From Myxococcales bacterium (GTDB taxonomy: Bacteria; Myxococcota_A; Polyangia; Fen-1088): DNA of 34,006 bases. Under the pieces are notes generated by a model. That model was not told where the DNA came from. It saw nothing but the letters and a program-made list of their open reading frames with translations, and made no database searches. The stretch is taken from NCBI GenBank assembly GCA_003158395.1, contig PMIX01000126.1, forward strand, positions 1 through 34,006, read 5' to 3'. Below, piece after piece: positions 941-19,441 of the stretch. Each line of letters starts with the position of its first letter. The first letter of the stretch is position 1. The position numbers were made by a program, and so were the translations under genes.

Positions 941-3700
941 ATGCGACAGATAGCTTTGCTGGTCTCGGTGATGGGGGTCCTCGGCGGGTGCAACTGGTTG
1001 ACGGAACTGAAGTCAGGACGGTGCGACAAGACGAGCGACTGCCGGGCAGGGGAGGTGTGCGACGAGCGTCAGTTTTGTGTCTGCGCAGGGCCCAATTGTG
1101 GGGATGGGGGCTCCCGCGACGTGAGCGGCCCAGCAACCATAGACGGAGCGGAGGCAAGGGAAAGCGGCGTCTCTTCCGACACGACGGCCGACGCGAGTGG
1201 CGTCTCCTCCGACACGACGGCCGATGCGAGTGGCGTCTCCGCGGACACGGCGGCCGGCGCGAGTATTGACGGGGCCACGGGCGACGCGAGCGCCGATGCC
1301 ACTGCCGATATGGTGCAGCCAGGGTGCAAAGTGAACGGGGATTGCTCGGATGCTCGACCGGCGTGCAGCGGCGGTGTTTGCGTGGAGTGCGCGACTTCCC
1401 CTGACTGCAAGAACCCAGGTAAGGCCGTGTGCGTAGCCAACGCTTGTGTGGAGTGCGGGGCCGTGGGTGACTGCAAAGATCCGGCGCGGGCGTTTTGCGT
1501 GGCGGGTGCCTGTGTGGGTTGCGACAAAGCCGGAGCGACTGCTTGTGCCGGGTTGCTGTGTGCGCCTGCGGACACCGCTGGCGTTGGTGGGCAGTGCGTG
1601 AAGTGTCTCACCAGTGCCGGCTGCTCGGGTGCCACGCCGATCTGCTCGGGCAACGCGTGCACCGCCTGCACCGCGGCCAGCCAGTGCCTCGCCAAGAACC
1701 CCACCGCACCGGCTTGTTCCGCCGGCGGGACCTGCGTCCAGTGCACGGACAACAGCACCTGCTCGGGGACGACCCCGGTGTGCGACACCACGACGAACAA
1801 GTGCGTCCAGTGTACGGACAACACGAGCTGTTCGGGTGCCACGCCGATCTGCTCGGGCAACGCGTGCACCGCCTGCACCGCGGCCAGCCAGTGCCTCGCC
1901 AAGAACCCCACCGCACCGGCTTGTTCCGCCAGCGGGACCTGCGTCCAGTGCGCGGACAACACCACCTGCTCGGGTACCACCCCGGTGTGTGACACCACGA
2001 CGAACAGGTGCGTCCAGTGCACGGACAACACGAGATGTTCGGGCGCCACGCCGATCTGCTCGGGTAACGTATGCACCGCCTGCACCGCAGCCAGCCAGTG
2101 TGCTGCCAAGAACCCCGCCGCGCCGGCTTGTTCCGCCAGCGGCGCGTGCGTCCAGTGCACGGACAACACCACCTGCTCGGGTACCACCCCGGTGTGCGAC
2201 ACCACAACGAACAGGTGCGTCCAGTGCCTCACTAGCGCCGGCTGCTCGGGCGCCACGCCGATCTGCTCGGGCAACGTGTGCGCCGCCTGCACCGCGGCTA
2301 GCCAGTGCGCTGCCAAGAGCCCCGCCGCTTCAGCGTGTTCCGCCACCGGGACGTGCGTCCAGTGTACCGACAACAGCACCTGCTCGGGTACCATGCCGGT
2401 GTGCGACATCACGACGAACAAGTGCGTCCAGTGCCTCACCAGCGTCGGCTGCTCGGGCGCCACGCCCATCTGCTCGGCGAACGTGTGTGCCGCCTGCACC
2501 GCGGCTAGCGACTGTGCTGCCAAGAACCCCGCCGCCCCGGCCTGTTCCGCCAGCGGGGCGTGCGTCCAGTGCACGGACAACACCACCTGCTCGGGTACCA
2601 CGCCCATCTGCTCGGCGAATGTGTGCACCGGCTGCACCGCGGCTAGTCAGTGTGCTGCCAAGAGCCCCACCGCTCCAGCGTGTTCCGCCAGCGGCACGTG
2701 TGTCCAGTGCACGGACAACACCACCTGCTCGGGTACCACGTCGGTATGCGACGCCACGACGAACAAGTGTGTCCAGTGCCTCACCAGCGCCGGCTGCTCG
2801 GGCGCCACGCCCATCTGTTCGGCGAACGTGTGCACCGCCTGCACCGCGGCTAGCCAGTGTCTCGCCAAGAACCCCGCCGCCCCGGCTTGTTCCGCCAGCG
2901 GGACGTGCGTGCAGTGCACCGACGACACCACCTGTTCCGGTAGCACACCCGTCTGCGCGACCGCAACCAACACTTGTCGCGGCTGCACCGCGGACACGGA
3001 GTGCTCCAGTCGTGGTCCCGGCGTGTGCATGAGCCACCAGGATGCCCGCTGCGCCTCCGATGCTGAGACGGCCGTCGTCATCGCTGGAGGCTCCCTGCCG
3101 AGTGTGGCCAGCCTGGCGGGCAAGGACCTGGTGGTCGTGCGCGGTACGGCATCCGGCACCCTGGTCTGGGCGCTCTCCGGCCCGCAGATGAGTATCGTGG
3201 GTCAGAACAGCGGCACCATCACCGGGGCTGGGGCAGGGAGCGCGGCGGTGCATGTCACCGGCGGCGACCTCTATATGAGGGGCCTCACGATCACCGGTGG
3301 CTCGCCTGGGCTCTGGGCAGATGGGGGGGCAGTCGTGCGCCTCGACCATGTCGACGTCACCAACAACACCGCCGGCGGCATCCTACTCGACGGGGCAGGC
3401 TTCGACATACGGAACACGACGGTCAGGGGGAATGGCCCGAACATAGCCGGCTCATCGGCCTTCGGCGGCATGCTCATCCAAAACGTGCCAACCTCGACCG
3501 CAGTGCCGAAGTCCCTGGCACTGTTTACGGTGACCTCGAACCAGCAGATTGGTGTGGCGTGTGCCTCGGGTACGGCCTCTCTCTTGAACCCCACGCCTAC
3601 AAGCGCGCTTGTATCCGGCAATACCGGCGGTGACATTGCCGGTACCTGCGGCTTCACCTCCTGCGCCACCGCCAGCACCACGTGCGGGGCCCAGCCATGA
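941..3700 (+). CDS. Large Cys-rich repeat lipoprotein with C-terminal beta-helix-like domain
   Basis: 919 aa, started by an ATG preceded by GCAGGAGGG and only two bases after the previous stop. The N-terminus has a signal peptide ending in a lipobox (VLGGC), so it is a predicted lipoprotein. A Ser/Asp/Thr/Ala-rich linker contains three copies of an 11-residue unit (GVSSDTTADAS). From about residue 125 to 690 the protein is built of short Cys modules of the form CxxC-x5-C-x6-C, organised into a 69-residue higher-order repeat. The last 220 residues lack this pattern and read as stacked short beta rungs (DLYMRGLTITGG, VVRLDHVDVTNN), like a right-handed parallel beta helix as in pectin-lyase-like folds. 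I infer a surface protein. The repeated modules resemble the Cys-rich repeats of other myxobacterial lipoproteins. The function is unknown, and no catalytic residues can be named. Confidence 0.85.
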   Translation: MRQIALLVSVMGVLGGCNWLTELKSGRCDKTSDCRAGEVCDERQFCVCAGPNCGDGGSRDVSGPATIDGAEARESGVSSDTTADASGVSSDTTADASGVSADTAAGASIDGATGDASADATADMVQPGCKVNGDCSDARPACSGGVCVECATSPDCKNPGKAVCVANACVECGAVGDCKDPARAFCVAGACVGCDKAGATACAGLLCAPADTAGVGGQCVKCLTSAGCSGATPICSGNACTACTAASQCLAKNPTAPACSAGGTCVQCTDNSTCSGTTPVCDTTTNKCVQCTDNTSCSGATPICSGNACTACTAASQCLAKNPTAPACSASGTCVQCADNTTCSGTTPVCDTTTNRCVQCTDNTRCSGATPICSGNVCTACTAASQCAAKNPAAPACSASGACVQCTDNTTCSGTTPVCDTTTNRCVQCLTSAGCSGATPICSGNVCAACTAASQCAAKSPAASACSATGTCVQCTDNSTCSGTMPVCDITTNKCVQCLTSVGCSGATPICSANVCAACTAASDCAAKNPAAPACSASGACVQCTDNTTCSGTTPICSANVCTGCTAASQCAAKSPTAPACSASGTCVQCTDNTTCSGTTSVCDATTNKCVQCLTSAGCSGATPICSANVCTACTAASQCLAKNPAAPACSASGTCVQCTDDTTCSGSTPVCATATNTCRGCTADTECSSRGPGVCMSHQDARCASDAETAVVIAGGSLPSVASLAGKDLVVVRGTASGTLVWALSGPQMSIVGQNSGTITGAGAGSAAVHVTGGDLYMRGLTITGGSPGLWADGGAVVRLDHVDVTNNTAGGILLDGAGFDIRNTTVRGNGPNIAGSSAFGGMLIQNVPTSTAVPKSLALFTVTSNQQIGVACASGTASLLNPTPTSALVSGNTGGDIAGTCGFTSCATASTTCGAQP
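1595..2970 (+). repeat. Tandem 207-bp (69-aa) coding repeat, with one 138-bp unit
   Basis: Within the Cys-rich lipoprotein gene the phrase encoding CVQC recurs at about 1734, 1941, 2148, 2355, 2562, 2700 and 2907. The spacing is 207 bp throughout except for 138 bp between 2562 and 2700. Each 207-bp unit encodes three Cys modules of about 23, 21 and 25 residues. The 138-bp unit lacks exactly one 69-bp module yet stays in frame. Sequence identity between units is high but not complete, so the array has both expanded and diverged. It is a coding minisatellite, not a CRISPR, because units abut with no spacers and are under clear codon constraint. Confidence 0.9.
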
Positions 3701-9817: not shown

Positions 9818-11572
9818 ATGACGCCCCTTCGGACCAAGCTGGTTCGCACGTCGCTCATCACTCTGGGGGCGGTGGGGCTTGCCGTCGTGCTGGTCACGGT
9901 CATCCTGCAGCTGCGCATCTCACAGAGGAACCTCACGGCGAACTGGATCCATATCGAACGGGCGCTGGAGTCCAAGGGGCGCCTGCTGGTGGCCAACCAG
10001 GCGGTGGCCATGCGCGCGTTCGTGGCCGGCAACGGGTTCGCCGACGTGCGCCAGCTAATCCAACACACAATGGCCCACGAGGACGATCTCCTGTACGGCG
10101 CCTTCGTGGACCGGAACGGCCGGACCTGGGCCTACGGTGATCGCACCTCTCCGACTGCGGATCCGGTTCGAAACGTTGCCTGGCAGGGCATGCCGCCGCC
10201 ACCGCCGTACGCCGAGGAAGTGACGAGCCGCCGGGTGCGCTTCGGCGGTGACGAGATCGCCGAGTTCTCGGCCCGCATCGCGGTCGACGGACAGGACGCG
10301 GGCGTGGTCCGCTACGGCGTATCGCTGGCGGCCATGCGGAAGGCGCACCAGCAGGCACGCAGCGAAGCCCGGCGGGGGCTGATTGAGGCGATTGTACTCA
10401 TCGGCGGAATCGGCATTCTTGCGATGGGCCTGGGAGGTTTCACCATGCGTCGTCAGGCGGCGAGCATCACCAAACCCTTGGCCGAGCTGAGCCGCGCCGT
10501 GCAGGCGATCGCGAGCGGCCAATCTGGGATCCAGGTGAGCATCCACAGTGGCGACGAGATCGAGGTGCTCGGGACCTACTTCAACGTCATGGTGCAGTCC
10601 CTTGAGGCGTCGTATGCCGATCTCGCCCTTGCCAACCAGCAGTTGAGGCAGCAGATGAACGACCGCCTCCAGATGGAGATCGAGCTGCGGCAAGCGCAGA
10701 AGCTGGAAGCGGTCGGGCGGCTTGCAGCGGGGATCGCGCACGAGATCAACACGCCGACGCAGTATGTGAACGACAGCATCCACTTCGTGCGCGATTCCAT
10801 GGACAGTCTTCAACGACTGATCCAGCGCTATCGGGAAATCTGCGAAACGCTCTCGCGCGGCGAGGCAGCGGCGGAGACTGCGCGCGAGCTGTCGGATGCG
10901 GAGGAGGAGGCGGACCTGCCTTACCTTATGCAGGAGATACCGGCAGCCCTCGATCGATCGATCGAGGGACTGGCGCGCGTGTCCACCATCGTCCGATCGA
11001 TGAAAGAGTTCGCGCACCCGGGGCAGACGGAGATCGCGGCGGTGGATCTGAACCGGACGATCTCCACCACGCTGACCATCGCCCGCAACGAGTACAAGTA
11101 CGTAGCGGACTTGGAGACCTGCTTCGGCGAGCTTCCGCCGGTCCCCTGTTACGAGGGGGAATTCAACCAGGCCATCCTGAACATCGTGATCAACGCCGCG
11201 CACGCGGTCGGCGATGTGGCGGGGAAGACGGGAACCAAGGGGTGCATCACCGTCCGCACCGAGCGCGACGGCGACTTCGCTCTGGTCTCGGTCAGGGACA
11301 CCGGCGCGGGCATCCCTCCCGCGATCCGCGACCGCATCTTCGATCCTTTCTTCACCACCAAGGAGGTGGGGCGGGGAACGGGTCAGGGGTTGCCGATTGC
11401 GCGATCCGTGATCGTGGACAAGCACAAGGGACAGCTCACCTTCGAAAGCGAGGTTGGCAAAGGGACGTGCTTCTTCATCAGACTTCCGCTGCACTCCGTG
11501 GGCGGCGCCGACAACCAATCGCGCCGAGAAGCAGACAGCGCGCACGGAAAGCGAGAGCTGACGCATGGGTGA
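9818..11572 (+). CDS. Membrane sensor histidine kinase
   Basis: 584 aa, ATG with GGAG upstream. Order of parts: TM1 at about residues 11-32; a periplasmic sensor region of about 155 residues; TM2 at about 187-210 (IEAIVLIGGIGILAMGLGG); a HAMP segment (SITKPLAELSRAVQAIASG); a coiled-coil; then the phospho-acceptor box RLAAGIAHEINTPTQYVND with His about 308. The ATPase domain shows an N box (NQAILNIVINAAHAV, near 449), G1 (RDTGAGIP), F box (IFDPFFTTK) and G2 (GRGTGQGLPIA). It has no receiver domain. The gene overlaps the next one by 8 bp and heads a four-gene unit with two binding-protein-like genes and a TonB-dependent receptor, so the signal it senses probably depends on those proteins. No response regulator is adjacent. 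Confidence 0.92.
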   Translation: MTPLRTKLVRTSLITLGAVGLAVVLVTVILQLRISQRNLTANWIHIERALESKGRLLVANQAVAMRAFVAGNGFADVRQLIQHTMAHEDDLLYGAFVDRNGRTWAYGDRTSPTADPVRNVAWQGMPPPPPYAEEVTSRRVRFGGDEIAEFSARIAVDGQDAGVVRYGVSLAAMRKAHQQARSEARRGLIEAIVLIGGIGILAMGLGGFTMRRQAASITKPLAELSRAVQAIASGQSGIQVSIHSGDEIEVLGTYFNVMVQSLEASYADLALANQQLRQQMNDRLQMEIELRQAQKLEAVGRLAAGIAHEINTPTQYVNDSIHFVRDSMDSLQRLIQRYREICETLSRGEAAAETARELSDAEEEADLPYLMQEIPAALDRSIEGLARVSTIVRSMKEFAHPGQTEIAAVDLNRTISTTLTIARNEYKYVADLETCFGELPPVPCYEGEFNQAILNIVINAAHAVGDVAGKTGTKGCITVRTERDGDFALVSVRDTGAGIPPAIRDRIFDPFFTTKEVGRGTGQGLPIARSVIVDKHKGQLTFESEVGKGTCFFIRLPLHSVGGADNQSRREADSAHGKRELTHG

Positions 11573-12308
11573 GGGCGCGAAGTCCTGTCGGATTGCGCTC
11601 GCGCTCGTGGTGGCGGCGACGTTGGTCGCTGGCTCGGTCAGGGCGGCGGCGCCGGCGCTCGGGCAGAAGATCTATGTGTACCTGCCGAGCAATGTGCGCC
11701 CGCCGATGCTGCAGCGGGTGCTGGCTGCGGCCTTACCCGGGGCCGAGGTGATGGTGTTTCGGCACCTGCGCGACTTCGAGACCAGCGTCGAGGAAGCCCC
11801 GCCCGACTTCATCATCAGTGCTCGCCCCTTCGTCGACAGGTGCGACCGATGGAAGCCTGTGCTGCAAGGGTTCGCTGCGGAGCGGGCTGAGGAGCCCTAC
11901 GTCCTGGTATCGGTGGGCCGCGCGGTCGATCCGGCGGACATCCCAGACCTGGGGATCGGCGTGGTCGATCTGCTGGGGAAGAAAGGGATGCCCGTCCTGG
12001 TCGCCAGACTGCTTGGAACGACCGCGCTTCCCAAACTGATCCGCGTCGGCCAGCCAGAGGACCTGCTGCCGTTGCTCGAACTGGGATTCGCGGGCGCTGT
12101 GCTGATGCCCGCACGAGCGGTGCCATCGTTGCGCGAGAAGAGCGCGCTTGACTTGCGCGTGACCGAGCTGAAGGCCGCGTCGGTAGGCCTGCCTGCGGTG
12201 GGCGTTGCGGCCGGCGCTCCGGTCTCGACCGAGATGGAGCGCAGGCTGATGGGGCTTCCGCCCGCCGTGAAGGCGCTGCTGGGCGTGGATGACTGGAGGC
12301 GGCCGTGA
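11565..12308 (+). CDS. Periplasmic binding-protein-like protein of the kinase operon
   Basis: 247 aa, with a signal peptide (ALALVVAATLVAGSVRAAA). The start ATG lies 8 bp inside the kinase gene, implying translational coupling. The mature protein begins with a typical first strand (QKIYVYLPSNV) and alternates short strands and helices (PPDFIISARP, DIPDLGIGVVDLL, GFAGAVLMPARAV), which is the appearance of a small type-2 periplasmic binding protein fold. It is shorter than usual transport-associated binding proteins (about 300 aa). No ABC permease or ATPase gene is nearby. I infer a periplasmic ligand-sensing partner of the kinase rather than a transport component. The exact family and ligand are unknown. 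Confidence 0.75.
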   Translation: MGEGAKSCRIALALVVAATLVAGSVRAAAPALGQKIYVYLPSNVRPPMLQRVLAAALPGAEVMVFRHLRDFETSVEEAPPDFIISARPFVDRCDRWKPVLQGFAAERAEEPYVLVSVGRAVDPADIPDLGIGVVDLLGKKGMPVLVARLLGTTALPKLIRVGQPEDLLPLLELGFAGAVLMPARAVPSLREKSALDLRVTELKAASVGLPAVGVAAGAPVSTEMERRLMGLPPAVKALLGVDDWRRP

Positions 12309-13357
12309 GGGCGATGCTGGGTGTGATCCTGGTCGCGTTTGCGGCTGGCGCGGGCGAGGGCGACGCAAGTCCCACGCCTGACGGAGGGCACCCGGACGCG
12401 TCGGCCCGAGGGCTGGTGGACACGCCGGCAGCGGAAGGTACCGTGCTGGTGCTGGGACCGCAGATAGCCGCCGCGAACGAAGTGGTGAGCGGCCTTAGGG
12501 ACGAGCTTGCCGACCACTACCAGATCGTCGAGCGCAAGGTCACCGCCGCGACGTCGGTCGAGGTGCTGTCGCAGATCATCCGCGAGGTCGAGCCACGGGT
12601 ACTGGTGCTGCTCGACAACCCGACAGTGCGTCTGTACCGTGCGCTCCAGGCCGTGCAACCCCCGGGAACCCGGTTTCAGCCGGCGGTGGTGCTGATGGCG
12701 GCTTTCTTCGAACAGGCGTCGGCCGGCCTGCAAAATACCACTGGGATCTCGTACGAGGTTCCGGCAGTCATCGGCTTCGTGAACCTGCGCAGCCTGCTGG
12801 GTCGGCCGCTCCGCAAGGTCGGCGTTCTTTTCCGACATGGCTTCGAGGGCGTCGTCGCCCGCCAGGGCGAGCTGGCAGCCGCCGAGGGATTCACGCTCGC
12901 GGGGCGCGTCCTCGACGACGGGGATCGAGTAAAGGCGGTCAAACGTGGCCTGCGGAGGTTGCTCGACTACGACCATGTCGATGCACTCTGGGTGCTGAAC
13001 GACAGCGCGCTCTTGTTTCCGGAGTTGCTGGCGCGGGCGTGGCTGCCCGTACTTCGGCACGGGCATATACCCGTGATGGTGGGCGTGTCGTCCCTGGTGT
13101 CGGCGAAGCTGGCTTTCGGAATATTCGCGGTGCTCCCCGATCACCGCGCGCTGGGCAGGCAGGCGGCTGGGCTAGTCGACACTCTGGCCGAGGCGAATTG
13201 GGTGGTGGGCGCGCACCGCCCGCTGCTGCCTGTCGCCATCGAGAAGGTGCTCAACGTCGGGATGGCGCGTGCGCTGGCTCCGATCCGCGAGGAAAGGCTG
13301 CGCGAGGTGGATCGACTGATCGAGGCCGGGGCTGAAGAGGGGCAGCGGGAGCCATGA
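12305..13357 (+). CDS. ABC_sub_bind-like periplasmic protein
   Basis: 350 aa, using a GTG start that overlaps the previous stop (GTGA). An ATG at 12314 is a possible alternative, and both leave a short signal peptide (AMLGVILVAFAAGAG). The body resembles the ABC_sub_bind family (Pfam PF04392-type, TrpX-like): a beta strand TVLVLGPQIAAANEV, helix, VLVLLDNPTVRLYRAL, then AVVLMAAFFEQA, KVGVLFRHGFEG, DALWVLNDSALLFP, HIPVMVGVSSLVSAKLAFG. The residues that would contact a ligand cannot be named. It is the second binding-protein-like gene in the operon and probably works with its neighbours in sensing a ligand delivered by the TonB-dependent receptor. Confidence 0.78.
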   Translation: MRAMLGVILVAFAAGAGEGDASPTPDGGHPDASARGLVDTPAAEGTVLVLGPQIAAANEVVSGLRDELADHYQIVERKVTAATSVEVLSQIIREVEPRVLVLLDNPTVRLYRALQAVQPPGTRFQPAVVLMAAFFEQASAGLQNTTGISYEVPAVIGFVNLRSLLGRPLRKVGVLFRHGFEGVVARQGELAAAEGFTLAGRVLDDGDRVKAVKRGLRRLLDYDHVDALWVLNDSALLFPELLARAWLPVLRHGHIPVMVGVSSLVSAKLAFGIFAVLPDHRALGRQAAGLVDTLAEANWVVGAHRPLLPVAIEKVLNVGMARALAPIREERLREVDRLIEAGAEEGQREP

Positions 13358-15507
13358 GAATCGGCGCGAGACCGGCGGCGCCCAGCCGCCACACAATCAC
13401 GGCGGTTGCCGCCGTGTCTATTCTTGCCGCTTTAGGCGCGGCTGAAGCACGCGTGCTGGCCGCGCCCGCCGCGGATCGGAATGCCTCCGAGTCGACCGCG
13501 CCAGAGGCCGCGCGTCTACCGGTGCCTGTCAGTGGCGGCGACGGGGATGGGGTCTCGGACGTGGATCTGGGCAGCCTGCTGCAGATGGACGAGGTATCGG
13601 TGGCCTCGATCAAGACAACGGGCGTGCGCGAGGCCCCTGGCATCGTGTCTTTGCTGACCCGTGAGGAGATCGAAGCCTCCGGTGCGCGTGACCTGGTGGA
13701 CCTGTTGGAGATGATGCCCGGCTTTTTCGTCGGCGTCGACGTGCAAGGCAACCTGGGTCTCGGGATGCGCGGCAACTGGGGCCAGGAGGGCAAGATCCTC
13801 CTTATCATCGACGGTCAGGAGATCAACGAGACGGCGTACGGCACGGTCTCGATCGCGCACCACTTTCCGGTACAGGCGATCGAGCGTATCGAGATCATCC
13901 GCGGGCCCGGGTCGGCGATCTACGGTGGGTTTGCCGAGTTGGGCGTTGTGAAGGTAACCACACGTGGCGCCGAGCAAATCGAGGGCGTCGAGGTCCTGCA
14001 GCGAGCCGGCGTGGCGGTCGGGCGAGTGGGCACGGATGTCGCGCACCCATTTGTTGACACCTACCTCGCTGCCGGGCGCACCTACGGCGACTTCGAGCTG
14101 TCGCTGTCGCTGTTTGGTGGGTACAGCGTACAGAGCGAGGGAACCTATACCGACATCTTCGGCACCAGTTTCAATGCCGCCAACGCGTCGGCGCGCCGGC
14201 CGCTGCTGGCAAATTTGCAAGCCGCCTGGCGTGACTGGCGGCTGCGCTTCATCGCCGACGGTTTCACCTACCAGGCGCAGGACGACTTCGACGTGGCAGG
14301 AAGCGCGCCCACTCACTATCGCTTCGGCGGCATCTACGGCGATCTCACGACGGTTCTCCAGCTGGGCCGCAACCTGACGCTGACCCCTCGCCTGGCCTAC
14401 AAGATCCAGGAGTCGTACGTTACCCTGCCGGCCTCGGCAGCCGACCAACAGCGCATCATCGACGCCGGACTGCTTGAGCGGCTGCGCATGGACAGGGCGC
14501 TCGCAGGGATGATGCTTGGTTGGGATGCGCGCCCTAGCCTCAACGTCATCGCCGGCGCGGAAGCCTTTTCCGATGTAGGGCGCGCCGGTGGAACCCCCGG
14601 CGACGGCTCGTCCGTGCAGGGGACGCGAAGCCTATCCACCGTCGCCGCCTTTGGGCAGCTGCTGTGGAATACGCCCATCGCGAACATCACCGTGGGAGGC
14701 CGGGGCGAGCACCACAGCTACTTCGGTTGGTCGGCGGTGCCGCGCGTGGCGCTAACCCGTGTCTTCTCGTCGGGGCTGCACCTGAAGCTCCTGGGCAGCC
14801 AGGCCTACAAAAGCCCGACCTTCATGAACTACGCCCTTGAGCGTTCGATCGATCCGGCGAACCGCGTGCGGCCGGAGAGCACCAACGCCCTTGAGGCAGA
14901 GGTCGGGTACGGGTTGCCCACAGGGCTGCAGCTCGTGGTGGATGGCTTCCTCGGCACGATCAACCACCCCATCATCTACAGCTACGACCCGGCCACGGGC
15001 AAGGAGTCCTACTTCAACCGCGGTCGGACAGGTACCTATGGCGGCGAGGCGGAGCTGCGCTTTGGCGGCAGGAACGTGGCGGCGAGTGCCAGCTACTCCT
15101 ACTACCACGCGCTGGCCAGCATCCCCGAGGACTACCGGGTCGCGGGCGGCGGTGGCGCCACGCTGGGCGCTCCCCAGCACAAGGGCGTTGTGCGCGCGAG
15201 CTGGCGGCCGACGCGGCACTGGCTCTTCGGCGCCACAGCGATTGGTTCGGGTGTCCGCTACGCCGTGACCGGCATCAACCCTGTCGATCAGAGCTACCTC
15301 GTGACGACCGTCGGTGCCCGGCTGCTGCTCGGCCTGTCGGCACGTTGTCAGGACGTAGGGGTTCGGGGTCTGTTACTCGGCCTCAGCGTGAACGACCTGC
15401 TCGACAGCCGCGATGTCTTCGTGCAGCCGTACCGGGGCGGTCACGCTCCGCTGCCCGGCGTGGGACGCCAGGTGTTCCTCAGCCTCGGTTACGCCTGGGA
15501 GCGGTGA
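13354..15507 (+). CDS. TonB-dependent outer-membrane receptor
   Basis: 717 aa, start ATG overlapping the previous stop (ATGA). A signal peptide is followed by DLGSLLQMDEVSVASIKTTG, which matches the N-terminal block of the TonB-receptor subfamily whose members begin their plug with a DLSLEELxxxxVTSVSK-like stretch. The plug domain runs through REAPGIVSLLTREEIEASGA, DLLEMMPGF, ILLIIDGQEINE and IERIEIIRGPGSAIYGG, the last being the strongest plug signature. The remainder is an antiparallel beta-barrel with alternating aromatic strands, ending QVFLSLGYAWER, where the terminal aromatic-rich strand is typical. No TonB, ExbB or ExbD genes are adjacent. As the last gene of a kinase/binding-protein operon, it is likely the ligand gate for that system. 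Confidence 0.9.
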   Translation: MRIGARPAAPSRHTITAVAAVSILAALGAAEARVLAAPAADRNASESTAPEAARLPVPVSGGDGDGVSDVDLGSLLQMDEVSVASIKTTGVREAPGIVSLLTREEIEASGARDLVDLLEMMPGFFVGVDVQGNLGLGMRGNWGQEGKILLIIDGQEINETAYGTVSIAHHFPVQAIERIEIIRGPGSAIYGGFAELGVVKVTTRGAEQIEGVEVLQRAGVAVGRVGTDVAHPFVDTYLAAGRTYGDFELSLSLFGGYSVQSEGTYTDIFGTSFNAANASARRPLLANLQAAWRDWRLRFIADGFTYQAQDDFDVAGSAPTHYRFGGIYGDLTTVLQLGRNLTLTPRLAYKIQESYVTLPASAADQQRIIDAGLLERLRMDRALAGMMLGWDARPSLNVIAGAEAFSDVGRAGGTPGDGSSVQGTRSLSTVAAFGQLLWNTPIANITVGGRGEHHSYFGWSAVPRVALTRVFSSGLHLKLLGSQAYKSPTFMNYALERSIDPANRVRPESTNALEAEVGYGLPTGLQLVVDGFLGTINHPIIYSYDPATGKESYFNRGRTGTYGGEAELRFGGRNVAASASYSYYHALASIPEDYRVAGGGGATLGAPQHKGVVRASWRPTRHWLFGATAIGSGVRYAVTGINPVDQSYLVTTVGARLLLGLSARCQDVGVRGLLLGLSVNDLLDSRDVFVQPYRGGHAPLPGVGRQVFLSLGYAWER

Positions 15508-17086: not shown

Positions 17087-19441
17087 TCATCGCCGCAAGC
17101 CCGTTCGCCGACGTCGCCGGTTCAGAACTAGGAACAGCGCGCCCAGCATAGCGACGAGAGAACCCGCCGGGAAGCCCCTGGAGGTCGCCCCGATCGCACA
17201 TGAACAGCCCGACGAGGCCGCCGCCTTGGGGCCGCTTCCTCCGCCCACGGCGCCGCCCCCAGATCCGCTGCCCGTGCTACCCCCGGTCTTGGGCGCCACC
17301 GCAGTCGTTCCGCCGGTTCCGATCACCACCGCCCCTCCGGTGCCTGCCACTGTGCTGCCCCCGGTCGCGGGATTGCCGGCTGCGGCTCCGCCGGTTCCGG
17401 GCCCCCCACCCAACGCGGACGTCCCGCCTGATCCGACAATCCCTGTTCCTCCGGTGTTTGTCCCGGTAGTGCCTCCGGGCCCGGTTGTTCCGCCGCTACC
17501 GCTCCCGCTGCCACCGCGACCACCCGCCGCACCAGCGCCGCCGCCCGCGCCTCCGACCACGGTGGTCCCGCCCCGACCGCCTGAGCCACCAGCCACAGTG
17601 GTCCCGCCGCCGCCCGCGCCCGCGGCGCCAGTGGTCCCGCCGCCGCCCGCGCCCGCGGCCCCGGTCCCGTCAGGATAGACGATATTGGGCCTGGGCGGGT
17701 CGGTCATCCCGTCGCCCAAGTAGTAGTCCAACATGTGCGACTGGATGTAGCCCTTTTCGCACATGCTGTTTCGATATTCGGGATCATGCACCAGGGTATA
17801 GATGCGCTTGTCGGTCGGAATGGCGGTTGTGTAGACCCTAAACCCCGTACTGTCGGTCTTTTCAAGCAGCACTTCCTCGCGCCAGTCGCCGAACATATCG
17901 CCGTACAAAGGGGCCGCATTGCGGGCTCCATAGATACCTTCGAGCGTCACTTTGCTGAAACTGCCGGCGGGCATGCCGGGATAGGCATATTTCGATACGA
18001 TGTTTCCGTCCAGGTTTTCACTCAGCACGTCGCCGTCCCACCAGATGCGAAAGTTCACCGCAGGATCATAGGAATCCACTGTCGTACCGGCCGTACCATT
18101 GCCAGGCTTCAAATTCTTGGAACCGTCTAGATTGTATATCCCATCCGTGGCGTCCCAGCATTCGTACCCCGGACTCGTCGGGTCGACATCTCCACATGTC
18201 CCGCGATTGATATCTGATGAACCGCTGCCAAACTTTTGAAGTACGGTGCCGGTCTTGGCGTTATAACGGGCCCAGTTATATCCAGAAGACTGTCCAACGG
18301 CCCAACCCAACAGGTCGGCGGACGGGTTGGGATCCATGGCGCCTATATGCCACCGGTCGCCGTGGCTTATGCCCTGAGAACCCATATTCCAGAAGACCGT
18401 TCCATCCCCCTTGATGGCATAGCCGCCGTTGACACATTCGTCGATGCCATCGCGATCAAGGTCGACACATCTGACCTGGTGGTCGTTTGGAAAGGAACCC
18501 ATAGGGGTACGGACGGCCTTGAACCGCATGGACCAGGCGCCATTCGTGAAATCAAATCCCATGTCCATCATAGCCCTCGTCCCACCGGCTTTTCCCTTGA
18601 AGTACAGGCTCGGATGCACGCCGTCCCAATAGGCGATGCTGAAATGGCCGGTTACGTTACCAGTAGCTTTAAGATCTTGGGGGACAGCGACTTCCTTGCC
18701 TTTTTCCGCGCCGGTTACTCCGTCGACCGCGACGATGAACGAGTCGGTTTGCGTTGTCGACGCGTTCAGTACTTTTCCATCCCCGAAGATCATGCCGTTG
18801 CCCCCTCTGAGCAGGAGTTCGGCTTTGCCGTCGCTGTCAATGTCATACACGGTTTCATCGTCGGCATGCCCACAACTAAGGGTGTCCGGACCGGAGAGTG
18901 AAAGGTCGGTATTCGTGCTGTTGGGGCCCATATCGACCCGCCACATGAACGTCCCGTCTCTCTTGTATGCATCTACATACTGGGATACGTTGTTCAGGAA
19001 CCGGTCCACAACATATTCGTATTCGCCATCCCCGTCGAGATCCCCGACATAGGCAAGGTGGATTTTCCTGCCGGCTGCGTCTTTGAGCGGGATCTCAAGA
19101 TAGCCATTTGGCAAGGCCATCGCCTGTGTCCCTGTCGCTTCCTCGACGCCCCCGATTATCGCTTTCAGGGTGTAGTCGGTGCCGCCGGCGGCAGTGTCCT
19201 GGTAGTTGGTTGAGTCGGTTATCGGCGCGGCATTGAGTTTTGTCGTCCCCTTGTACACGTTGAAGGCGACATCGGTGCCCTGTTCCGTGCCGAAGAGCCG
19301 CCACGACAGAAGGGTTCCGGTTCCTCCCCCAACCGCGACAAAGCCCCGGCCCAGTCTCTCCATGATGCGCTGCCCGTGGGCAGGCACAGCCAAGAGGCCA
19401 GCGGCCAGGAAAACACAAGACCAAGAGCCTTTGAATCTCAT
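17087..19441 (-). CDS. PL11-type rhamnogalacturonan lyase with MYXO-CTERM-like tail
   Basis: 784 aa, ATG with AAGGAG eight bases upstream on the minus strand. A signal peptide (FLAAGLLAVPAHG) is followed by a catalytic region of about 590 residues typical of family 11 polysaccharide lyases: an N-terminal beta domain (GRGFVAVGGGTGTLLSWRLFG), then a propeller with calcium-type loops (DLDGDGEYE, DIDSDGKAE, DLDRDGIDE) and the family's late blocks (FRIWWDGDVLSE, PLYGDMFGDWREEVLLE, YTLVHDPEYRNSM, QSHMLDYYLGDGM). Next comes a Gly/Thr/Ala-rich linker of about 150 residues, then GCSC, a membrane segment (SLVAMLGALFLVL) and RRRRR, matching the MYXO-CTERM layout for retention or cleavage at the envelope. 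Family 11 members cleave rhamnogalacturonan I of pectin by beta-elimination. It is probably surface displayed. Confidence 0.92.
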   Translation of the reverse strand: MRFKGSWSCVFLAAGLLAVPAHGQRIMERLGRGFVAVGGGTGTLLSWRLFGTEQGTDVAFNVYKGTTKLNAAPITDSTNYQDTAAGGTDYTLKAIIGGVEEATGTQAMALPNGYLEIPLKDAAGRKIHLAYVGDLDGDGEYEYVVDRFLNNVSQYVDAYKRDGTFMWRVDMGPNSTNTDLSLSGPDTLSCGHADDETVYDIDSDGKAELLLRGGNGMIFGDGKVLNASTTQTDSFIVAVDGVTGAEKGKEVAVPQDLKATGNVTGHFSIAYWDGVHPSLYFKGKAGGTRAMMDMGFDFTNGAWSMRFKAVRTPMGSFPNDHQVRCVDLDRDGIDECVNGGYAIKGDGTVFWNMGSQGISHGDRWHIGAMDPNPSADLLGWAVGQSSGYNWARYNAKTGTVLQKFGSGSSDINRGTCGDVDPTSPGYECWDATDGIYNLDGSKNLKPGNGTAGTTVDSYDPAVNFRIWWDGDVLSENLDGNIVSKYAYPGMPAGSFSKVTLEGIYGARNAAPLYGDMFGDWREEVLLEKTDSTGFRVYTTAIPTDKRIYTLVHDPEYRNSMCEKGYIQSHMLDYYLGDGMTDPPRPNIVYPDGTGAAGAGGGGTTGAAGAGGGGTTVAGGSGGRGGTTVVGGAGGGAGAAGGRGGSGSGSGGTTGPGGTTGTNTGGTGIVGSGGTSALGGGPGTGGAAAGNPATGGSTVAGTGGAVVIGTGGTTAVAPKTGGSTGSGSGGGAVGGGSGPKAAASSGCSCAIGATSRGFPAGSLVAMLGALFLVLNRRRRRTGLRR

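Follow-up and report, generated by a model that had tools for sequence, protein, structure and literature searches.

The window analysed here is a 34,006-nucleotide stretch of contig PMIX01000126.1 (assembly GCA_003158395.1) from a Myxococcales bacterium of the Polyangia, whose draft genome is fragmented (5.35 Mb, with 89% completeness). It carries an operon of four open reading frames (ORFs) in which a HAMP histidine kinase (P0001) is followed, 5' to 3', by two smaller proteins, here called P2 (P0002) and P3 (P0003), and by a TonB-dependent receptor (P0004). The genes and their domains are as follows.

9818..11572, + strand: sensor histidine kinase, 584 aa, with two transmembrane helices, a periplasmic domain, HAMP, a HisKA-like H-box (H308) and HATPase, and no receiver domain
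9914..10375, + strand: predicted periplasmic single-Cache-like sensor domain of the kinase, about aa 33-186 (AlphaFold2 model, Foldseek, Pfam match of a homologue)
10457..10609, + strand: HAMP domain of the kinase, aa 214-264 (Pfam)
11162..11494, + strand: HATPase_c domain of the kinase, aa 449-559 (Pfam)
11565..12308, + strand: P2, secreted protein with a predicted PhnD/AioX-like type II binding-protein fold (AlphaFold2 and Foldseek)
12305..13357, + strand: P3, PF04392-like (ABC_sub_bind) putative binding protein (hhalign, profile against 3LFT and 3LKV)
13354..15507, + strand: TonB-dependent receptor, 717 aa (Pfam Plug, 1.5e-17)
13624..13944, + strand: Plug domain of the receptor (domain search)

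Successive genes overlap by 8, 4 and 4 nt, and the GC content at third codon positions is coding-like in all four frames (0.80-0.83). The upstream neighbour is an unrelated Gly/Ser-rich protein and the downstream one a DEAD-box helicase encoded on the other strand, so that the four-gene unit is bounded on both sides. The ORF list and Pfam searches show neither receiver domains nor permeases or ATPases of the ATP-binding cassette (ABC) type within or adjoining the operon. This confirms the co-directional, overlapping, transporter-free arrangement that the initial annotation had described. A promoter scan of the region found nothing, and terminator-like sites were no more frequent than expected by chance.

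The cytoplasmic part of the kinase is recognised by Pfam through HAMP (6.9e-12), HATPase_c (7.7e-24) and a weak HisKA match (0.019). The H-box H308 falls inside the latter, within the motif AHEIN at 307, and is followed by an N-box at 455 and G-boxes at 494 and 520. The periplasmic region has no Pfam match. An AlphaFold2 model of aa 1-268 (predicted local distance difference test, pLDDT, 82) matches the sensor domains of WalK/YycG and DctB in Foldseek, the best fold match being WalK in a WalK-YycH model, and a distant homologue of the sensor (locus L073) matches sCache_3_2 at 2.4e-13. As modelled, P0001 thus resembles a Cache-domain sensor kinase, in which HAMP and kinase domains come after an extracytoplasmic Cache fold.

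Searches of Pfam, NCBIfam and the PDB with the P2 sequence returned nothing useful, and no Pfam match rises above chance for P2 or any of its 23 aligned homologues; fold prediction was therefore used. The resulting model (mean pLDDT 94.4) finds PhnD-like binding proteins as its best Foldseek matches, namely 7t1m/bacterial sterol transporter protein, PtxB, ArrX, AioX and Venus flytrap (VFT) domain 2 of BvgS, with E-values of 1e-9 to 1e-11 and a TM-score of ~0.7 by query length to AioX and PtxB. By this prediction P2 has a bilobed type II binding-protein fold, and AioX, ArrX and the BvgS VFT domain are all signalling members. AioX binds arsenite through a cysteine. No column of the P2 alignment holds a cysteine in more than 4 of the 24 homologues, and orthology of P2 to AioX was rejected on this ground.

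P3 sits at the edge of a known family. The only Pfam hit of P0003 is a sub-threshold periplasmic-binding match; PF04392 is matched neither by P0003 nor elsewhere in its genome, and by just 4 of 21 P3 homologues (best 4.5e-5). Profile comparison reaches further: hhalign aligns the P3 family with a PF04392-like set at probability 99.2 over 273 columns (set member L035 is PF04392-positive at 2.1e-26), and the family profile matches the structures 3LFT (1.5e-6) and 3LKV (1.1e-4). On these alignments, P3 is a distant PF04392 relative that falls below the family cut-off and within remote homology. Polar and aromatic positions are strongly conserved at N105, Y150-E151 and N232-D233. Most relatives carry a lipobox, and the window copy has none.

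Weak P3 matches in other Myxococcota (L035-L041, L052) were rejected as members of the module; they are PF04392-type proteins whose neighbours are Ser/Thr kinases or receptors. In L036 (3588-6206), L037 (3085-5975), L039 (6591-9319) and L041 (6190-11184), a PF04392-like protein directly follows a Ser/Thr kinase, mostly with PEGA domains, and in L041 a TonB-dependent receptor lies convergently beside the pair.

The fourth gene encodes a receptor with plug and beta-barrel: the Plug match, the length and a barrel-like C-terminus in the sequence agree, although PF00593 is not reached. The receptor tree has long branches, and the window receptor is not reliably placed in it.

P2 is rare across the Myxococcota (2 of 284 sampled genomes) and in the class of Pleionea (3 of 369, one only at 6.8e-4); within the genus and family of the window it is common, occurring in 11 of the 39 nearest genomes. 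When each species was represented by a single genome, a scan yielded 31 loci of P3. The Myxococcota among them include Sorangium cellulosum; the others are Sulfidibacter and a further member of the Acidobacteriota, the Gammaproteobacteria Algicola and Pleionea, a Fibrobacteria metagenome-assembled genome (MAG) and a Desulfatirhabdium MAG. Genome-sequenced strains that have the module belong to Sorangium cellulosum and Pleionea sediminis. P3 adjoins P2 in 31 of 33 P2 loci; one of the remaining pairs is separated by a TonB-dependent receptor and the other is cut by a contig end. The same sensor lies within 6 kb in 25/33 and a TonB-dependent receptor in 23/33. Ten whole genomes reached through these loci contain 12 P2 copies and 13 strong sensor copies, of which 11 coincide (11/12 P2 copies beside a strong sensor, 11/13 strong sensors beside P2). 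The four-gene arrangement is not due to chance.

A phylum-wide search with the sensor alignment matched nearly every genome because of HAMP, so that only strong matches are meaningful. A HAMP-free sensor model, built only from loci of the same family, was therefore tested on held-out loci. Among 2982 ORFs it picked only sensor proteins, with E-values of 2.8e-43 in Algicola, 1e-40 in Pleionea, 5e-17 in Sulfidibacter and 1e-9 in the Fibrobacteria MAG.

Closer to the window, the sister genome G284 (contig L042/L053) shares the order of the four genes, and its P2/P3 and P3/receptor junctions are both 4-nt overlaps. Its kinase (L042 4370-6377) is apparently split over two frames, with the HATPase part in another ORF, which appears to be a frameshift or assembly error. 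L047 retains only a 116-aa sensor piece, and assembly errors or decay do occur among the loci, many of which are short contigs with mechanically called ORFs and several uncertain gene starts. The window genome itself holds a second P2-P3 copy (the two being C306 and C24), whose output is of the Hpt-HATPase type and which has a receptor at a distance of 3.7 kb.

Pairwise distances of P2, P3 and sensor correlate closely (Pearson 0.93-0.98, Spearman 0.47-0.72), and receptor distances follow them less well (Pearson 0.66-0.68, Spearman 0.13-0.29), all values being uncorrected for species phylogeny. Since P2, P3 and sensor co-diverge tightly and the receptor less so, it is the input unit that is conserved: P2, P3 and the Cache-HAMP sensor form the constant core, and the TonB-dependent receptor is a frequent, looser partner. 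Both small proteins are binding-protein-like, as initially proposed, P2 by structural comparison of its predicted fold and P3 by profile, and gene neighbourhoods bear out that they belong with the kinase. The proposed inclusion of the receptor in the sensing unit holds in part, given its presence near most loci and its weaker co-divergence.

Behind the sensor, the output differs from locus to locus. The window has HisKA-HATPase, which is extended by REC in L034 and L071 and by REC-Hpt in L074 and L081. Hpt-HATPase is found in L033, L043, L044, L046, L048, L051, L059 and L062, GAF-Hpt-HATPase in L068 and L078 (with CheY-like and CheX-like genes beside L068), and PAS-HATPase in L082. L073 carries a SpoIIE phosphatase. 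In L045 (8214-10721), from a genome of the window's family, the signalling domain of a methyl-accepting chemotaxis protein (MCP) is fused to the sensor, in a gene divergent from the adjoining P2-P3. The kinase is just one of several outputs joined to the Cache-HAMP sensor. The initial annotation had named a kinase as output and noted that a response regulator was missing; both statements describe the window operon, but other members place different outputs on the same sensor and carry fused or adjacent receivers.

A sensing role of the operon is well supported. We consider it probable that the operon constitutes one signal-transduction unit, in which P2, P3 and Cache-HAMP serve as a modular input cartridge that drives other outputs in relatives. 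The TonB-dependent receptor would probably admit a ligand into the periplasm, where P2 and P3 would bind it, each other or both, and would act on the kinase through its Cache domain. The Cache-HAMP unit would then switch the cytoplasmic output, here a HisKA-type kinase, whose response regulator is presumably encoded elsewhere. Commonly, the receptor would either supply the ligand or itself be controlled by the system.

Several observations weigh against this interpretation. Since P3 or P2 served to select the loci, the linkage counts start from that anchor, and shared species phylogeny may still contribute to the distance correlations. The binding competence of P2 and P3 is deduced from predicted folds. 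In L054 (1977-3542) and L056 (4528-5883), P2-P3 stand beside a Ser/Thr kinase and no Cache sensor is seen; Sorangium L055 has a P2-P3 locus without a sensor nearby, and L152 (7496-9856) and L153 (121-1803) have strong sensor copies without P2 nearby. Near about one third of the loci, some of them on short contigs, the receptor is absent. This last point, together with the occurrence of the receptors on either strand and from diverse subgroups and their weaker co-divergence, would also fit a sensor made of P2, P3 and the Cache kinase that does not obtain its ligand from the receptor; the receptor gene would then be a target of the system (autoregulated uptake) or a neighbour particular to the lineage. 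We regard that explanation as possible but somewhat unlikely, as the receptor lies within or directly adjoining the P2-P3 operon in the window, the sister genome, G291 and Sorangium strains, and both modules of the window genome (C306 and C24) have a receptor within 4 kb although only about nine such genes exist there. The small proteins might alternatively have lost ligand binding and act as structural or envelope-state co-sensors, inhibitory partners of the Cache kinase. A P2 without recognisable family or arsenite-sensor-type conserved cysteine, with many conserved residues that look structural, is in line with such a role, and so is the WalK-YycH match of the sensor model. This appears improbable to us in view of the conserved P3 residues, which are those expected for a pocket, and of the ligand-importing receptor that is commonly adjacent.

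The folds of P2 and P3 are both typical of ABC transport partners, and an uptake system has to be weighed as well. Its inner-membrane permease would be encoded at another place in the genome and would receive a nutrient from receptor, P2 and P3, with the kinase in a purely regulatory role. The best case for it is L151 (1074-8873), where two tandem TonB-dependent receptors, P2, P3, a FetA-like ATPase and a UPF0014 permease run in one direction. This FetA/UPF0014-like pair is the main exception: no permease and ATPase of a binding-protein-dependent importer accompany the window operon or are otherwise found around the 40 P2-bearing loci, where the other ABC genes are exporter-type fusions (L043, L074, Sorangium relatives) and a lone ATPase (L057), besides a UvrA-like protein in L078 identified by reading its sequence. 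Moreover, P2-P3 track the sensor domain across several output types, including MCP and phosphatase, which makes such an uptake system quite improbable. Genes routinely found apart, or beside a complete ABC transporter, would have spoken against the reading given in the initial annotation; instead, P2 and P3 stay together.

Each step of the proposed sensing mechanism has a separate precedent, one for a binding protein acting on a kinase and one for a TonB-dependent receptor acting on a kinase. The former is provided by AioX-AioS (PMC5908839), in whose binding-protein family, according to the same paper, signalling is confined to AioX orthologues. The AioX-AioS-AioR and ArrX systems likewise combine a PhnD-like periplasmic binding protein with a sensor kinase and no transporter of their own, and the P2 model matches both AioX and ArrX. 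In contrast to P2, however, AioX pairs with one kinase and has neither a second binding protein nor a TonB-dependent receptor, and P2 differs in its cysteines and in having no detectable sequence-family match. The AioXSR arrangement, which clusters the genes for a response regulator, its kinase and a binding protein, is also absent, as the window operon encodes no receiver protein, although some relatives do. In LuxP-LuxQ, TorT-TorS and XylFII-LytS, a periplasmic binding protein works through the ligand-binding domain of the kinase, and indirect sensing of this kind is thought to be under-detected (PMC6321045). Each of these systems has a single binding protein, of another fold class, and no TonB-dependent receptor; one input unit that serves kinase, chemoreceptor and phosphatase outputs alike is not reported in the same source (PMC6321045). 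The receptor step resembles PfeA-PfeS/PfeR, where the TonB receptor admits the ligand to the periplasm and the inner-membrane kinase senses it (PMC8001512), there directly and without binding proteins. P3 aligns with the PF04392 proteins 3LFT and 3LKV, but its family is usually below threshold and has no permease or ATPase partner. BvgS also uses the type II binding-protein fold as a kinase sensor; its VFT domains are part of the kinase, whereas here P2 and P3 are separate proteins.

Within the limited literature covered, we found no description of this gene set, nor of these two steps combined with each other, with two dissimilar binding proteins and with exchanged outputs. For the broader proposal we put the chances at about even: P2, P3 and Cache-HAMP would be an undescribed, phylum-crossing cartridge whose single Cache receptor is gated by two unrelated binding-type proteins together. 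Joined to several output classes and commonly supplied by a TonB-dependent receptor, it would provide a dedicated sensing path from outer membrane to cytoplasm without inner-membrane transport. If true, the module would place a second signalling lineage among the PhnD-like proteins, one that is paired with a TonB-dependent receptor and with an additional binding protein whose fold is different. The linkage to the receptor suggests that, for sensing, bacteria can take up a molecule into the periplasm and no further. Output swapping makes the input testable, since the same input should be readable through chemoreceptor, kinase or phosphatase. The module is conserved, unusual and testable, yet assembled from known kinds of part.

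Some further features were recorded. At L054 and L056, the P2 that follows the Ser/Thr kinase is extended at its N-terminus, and TPR and PEGA regions are present in L054. Elsewhere in the window, an ORF of 919 aa without Pfam match occupies 941-3700, and an RHS-repeat protein reaches the contig end (30461-33988). A rhamnogalacturonan lyase family 11 protein is encoded at 17087-19441; its C-terminal region contains a long stretch rich in Gly and Thr, and it has a terminal membrane anchor.

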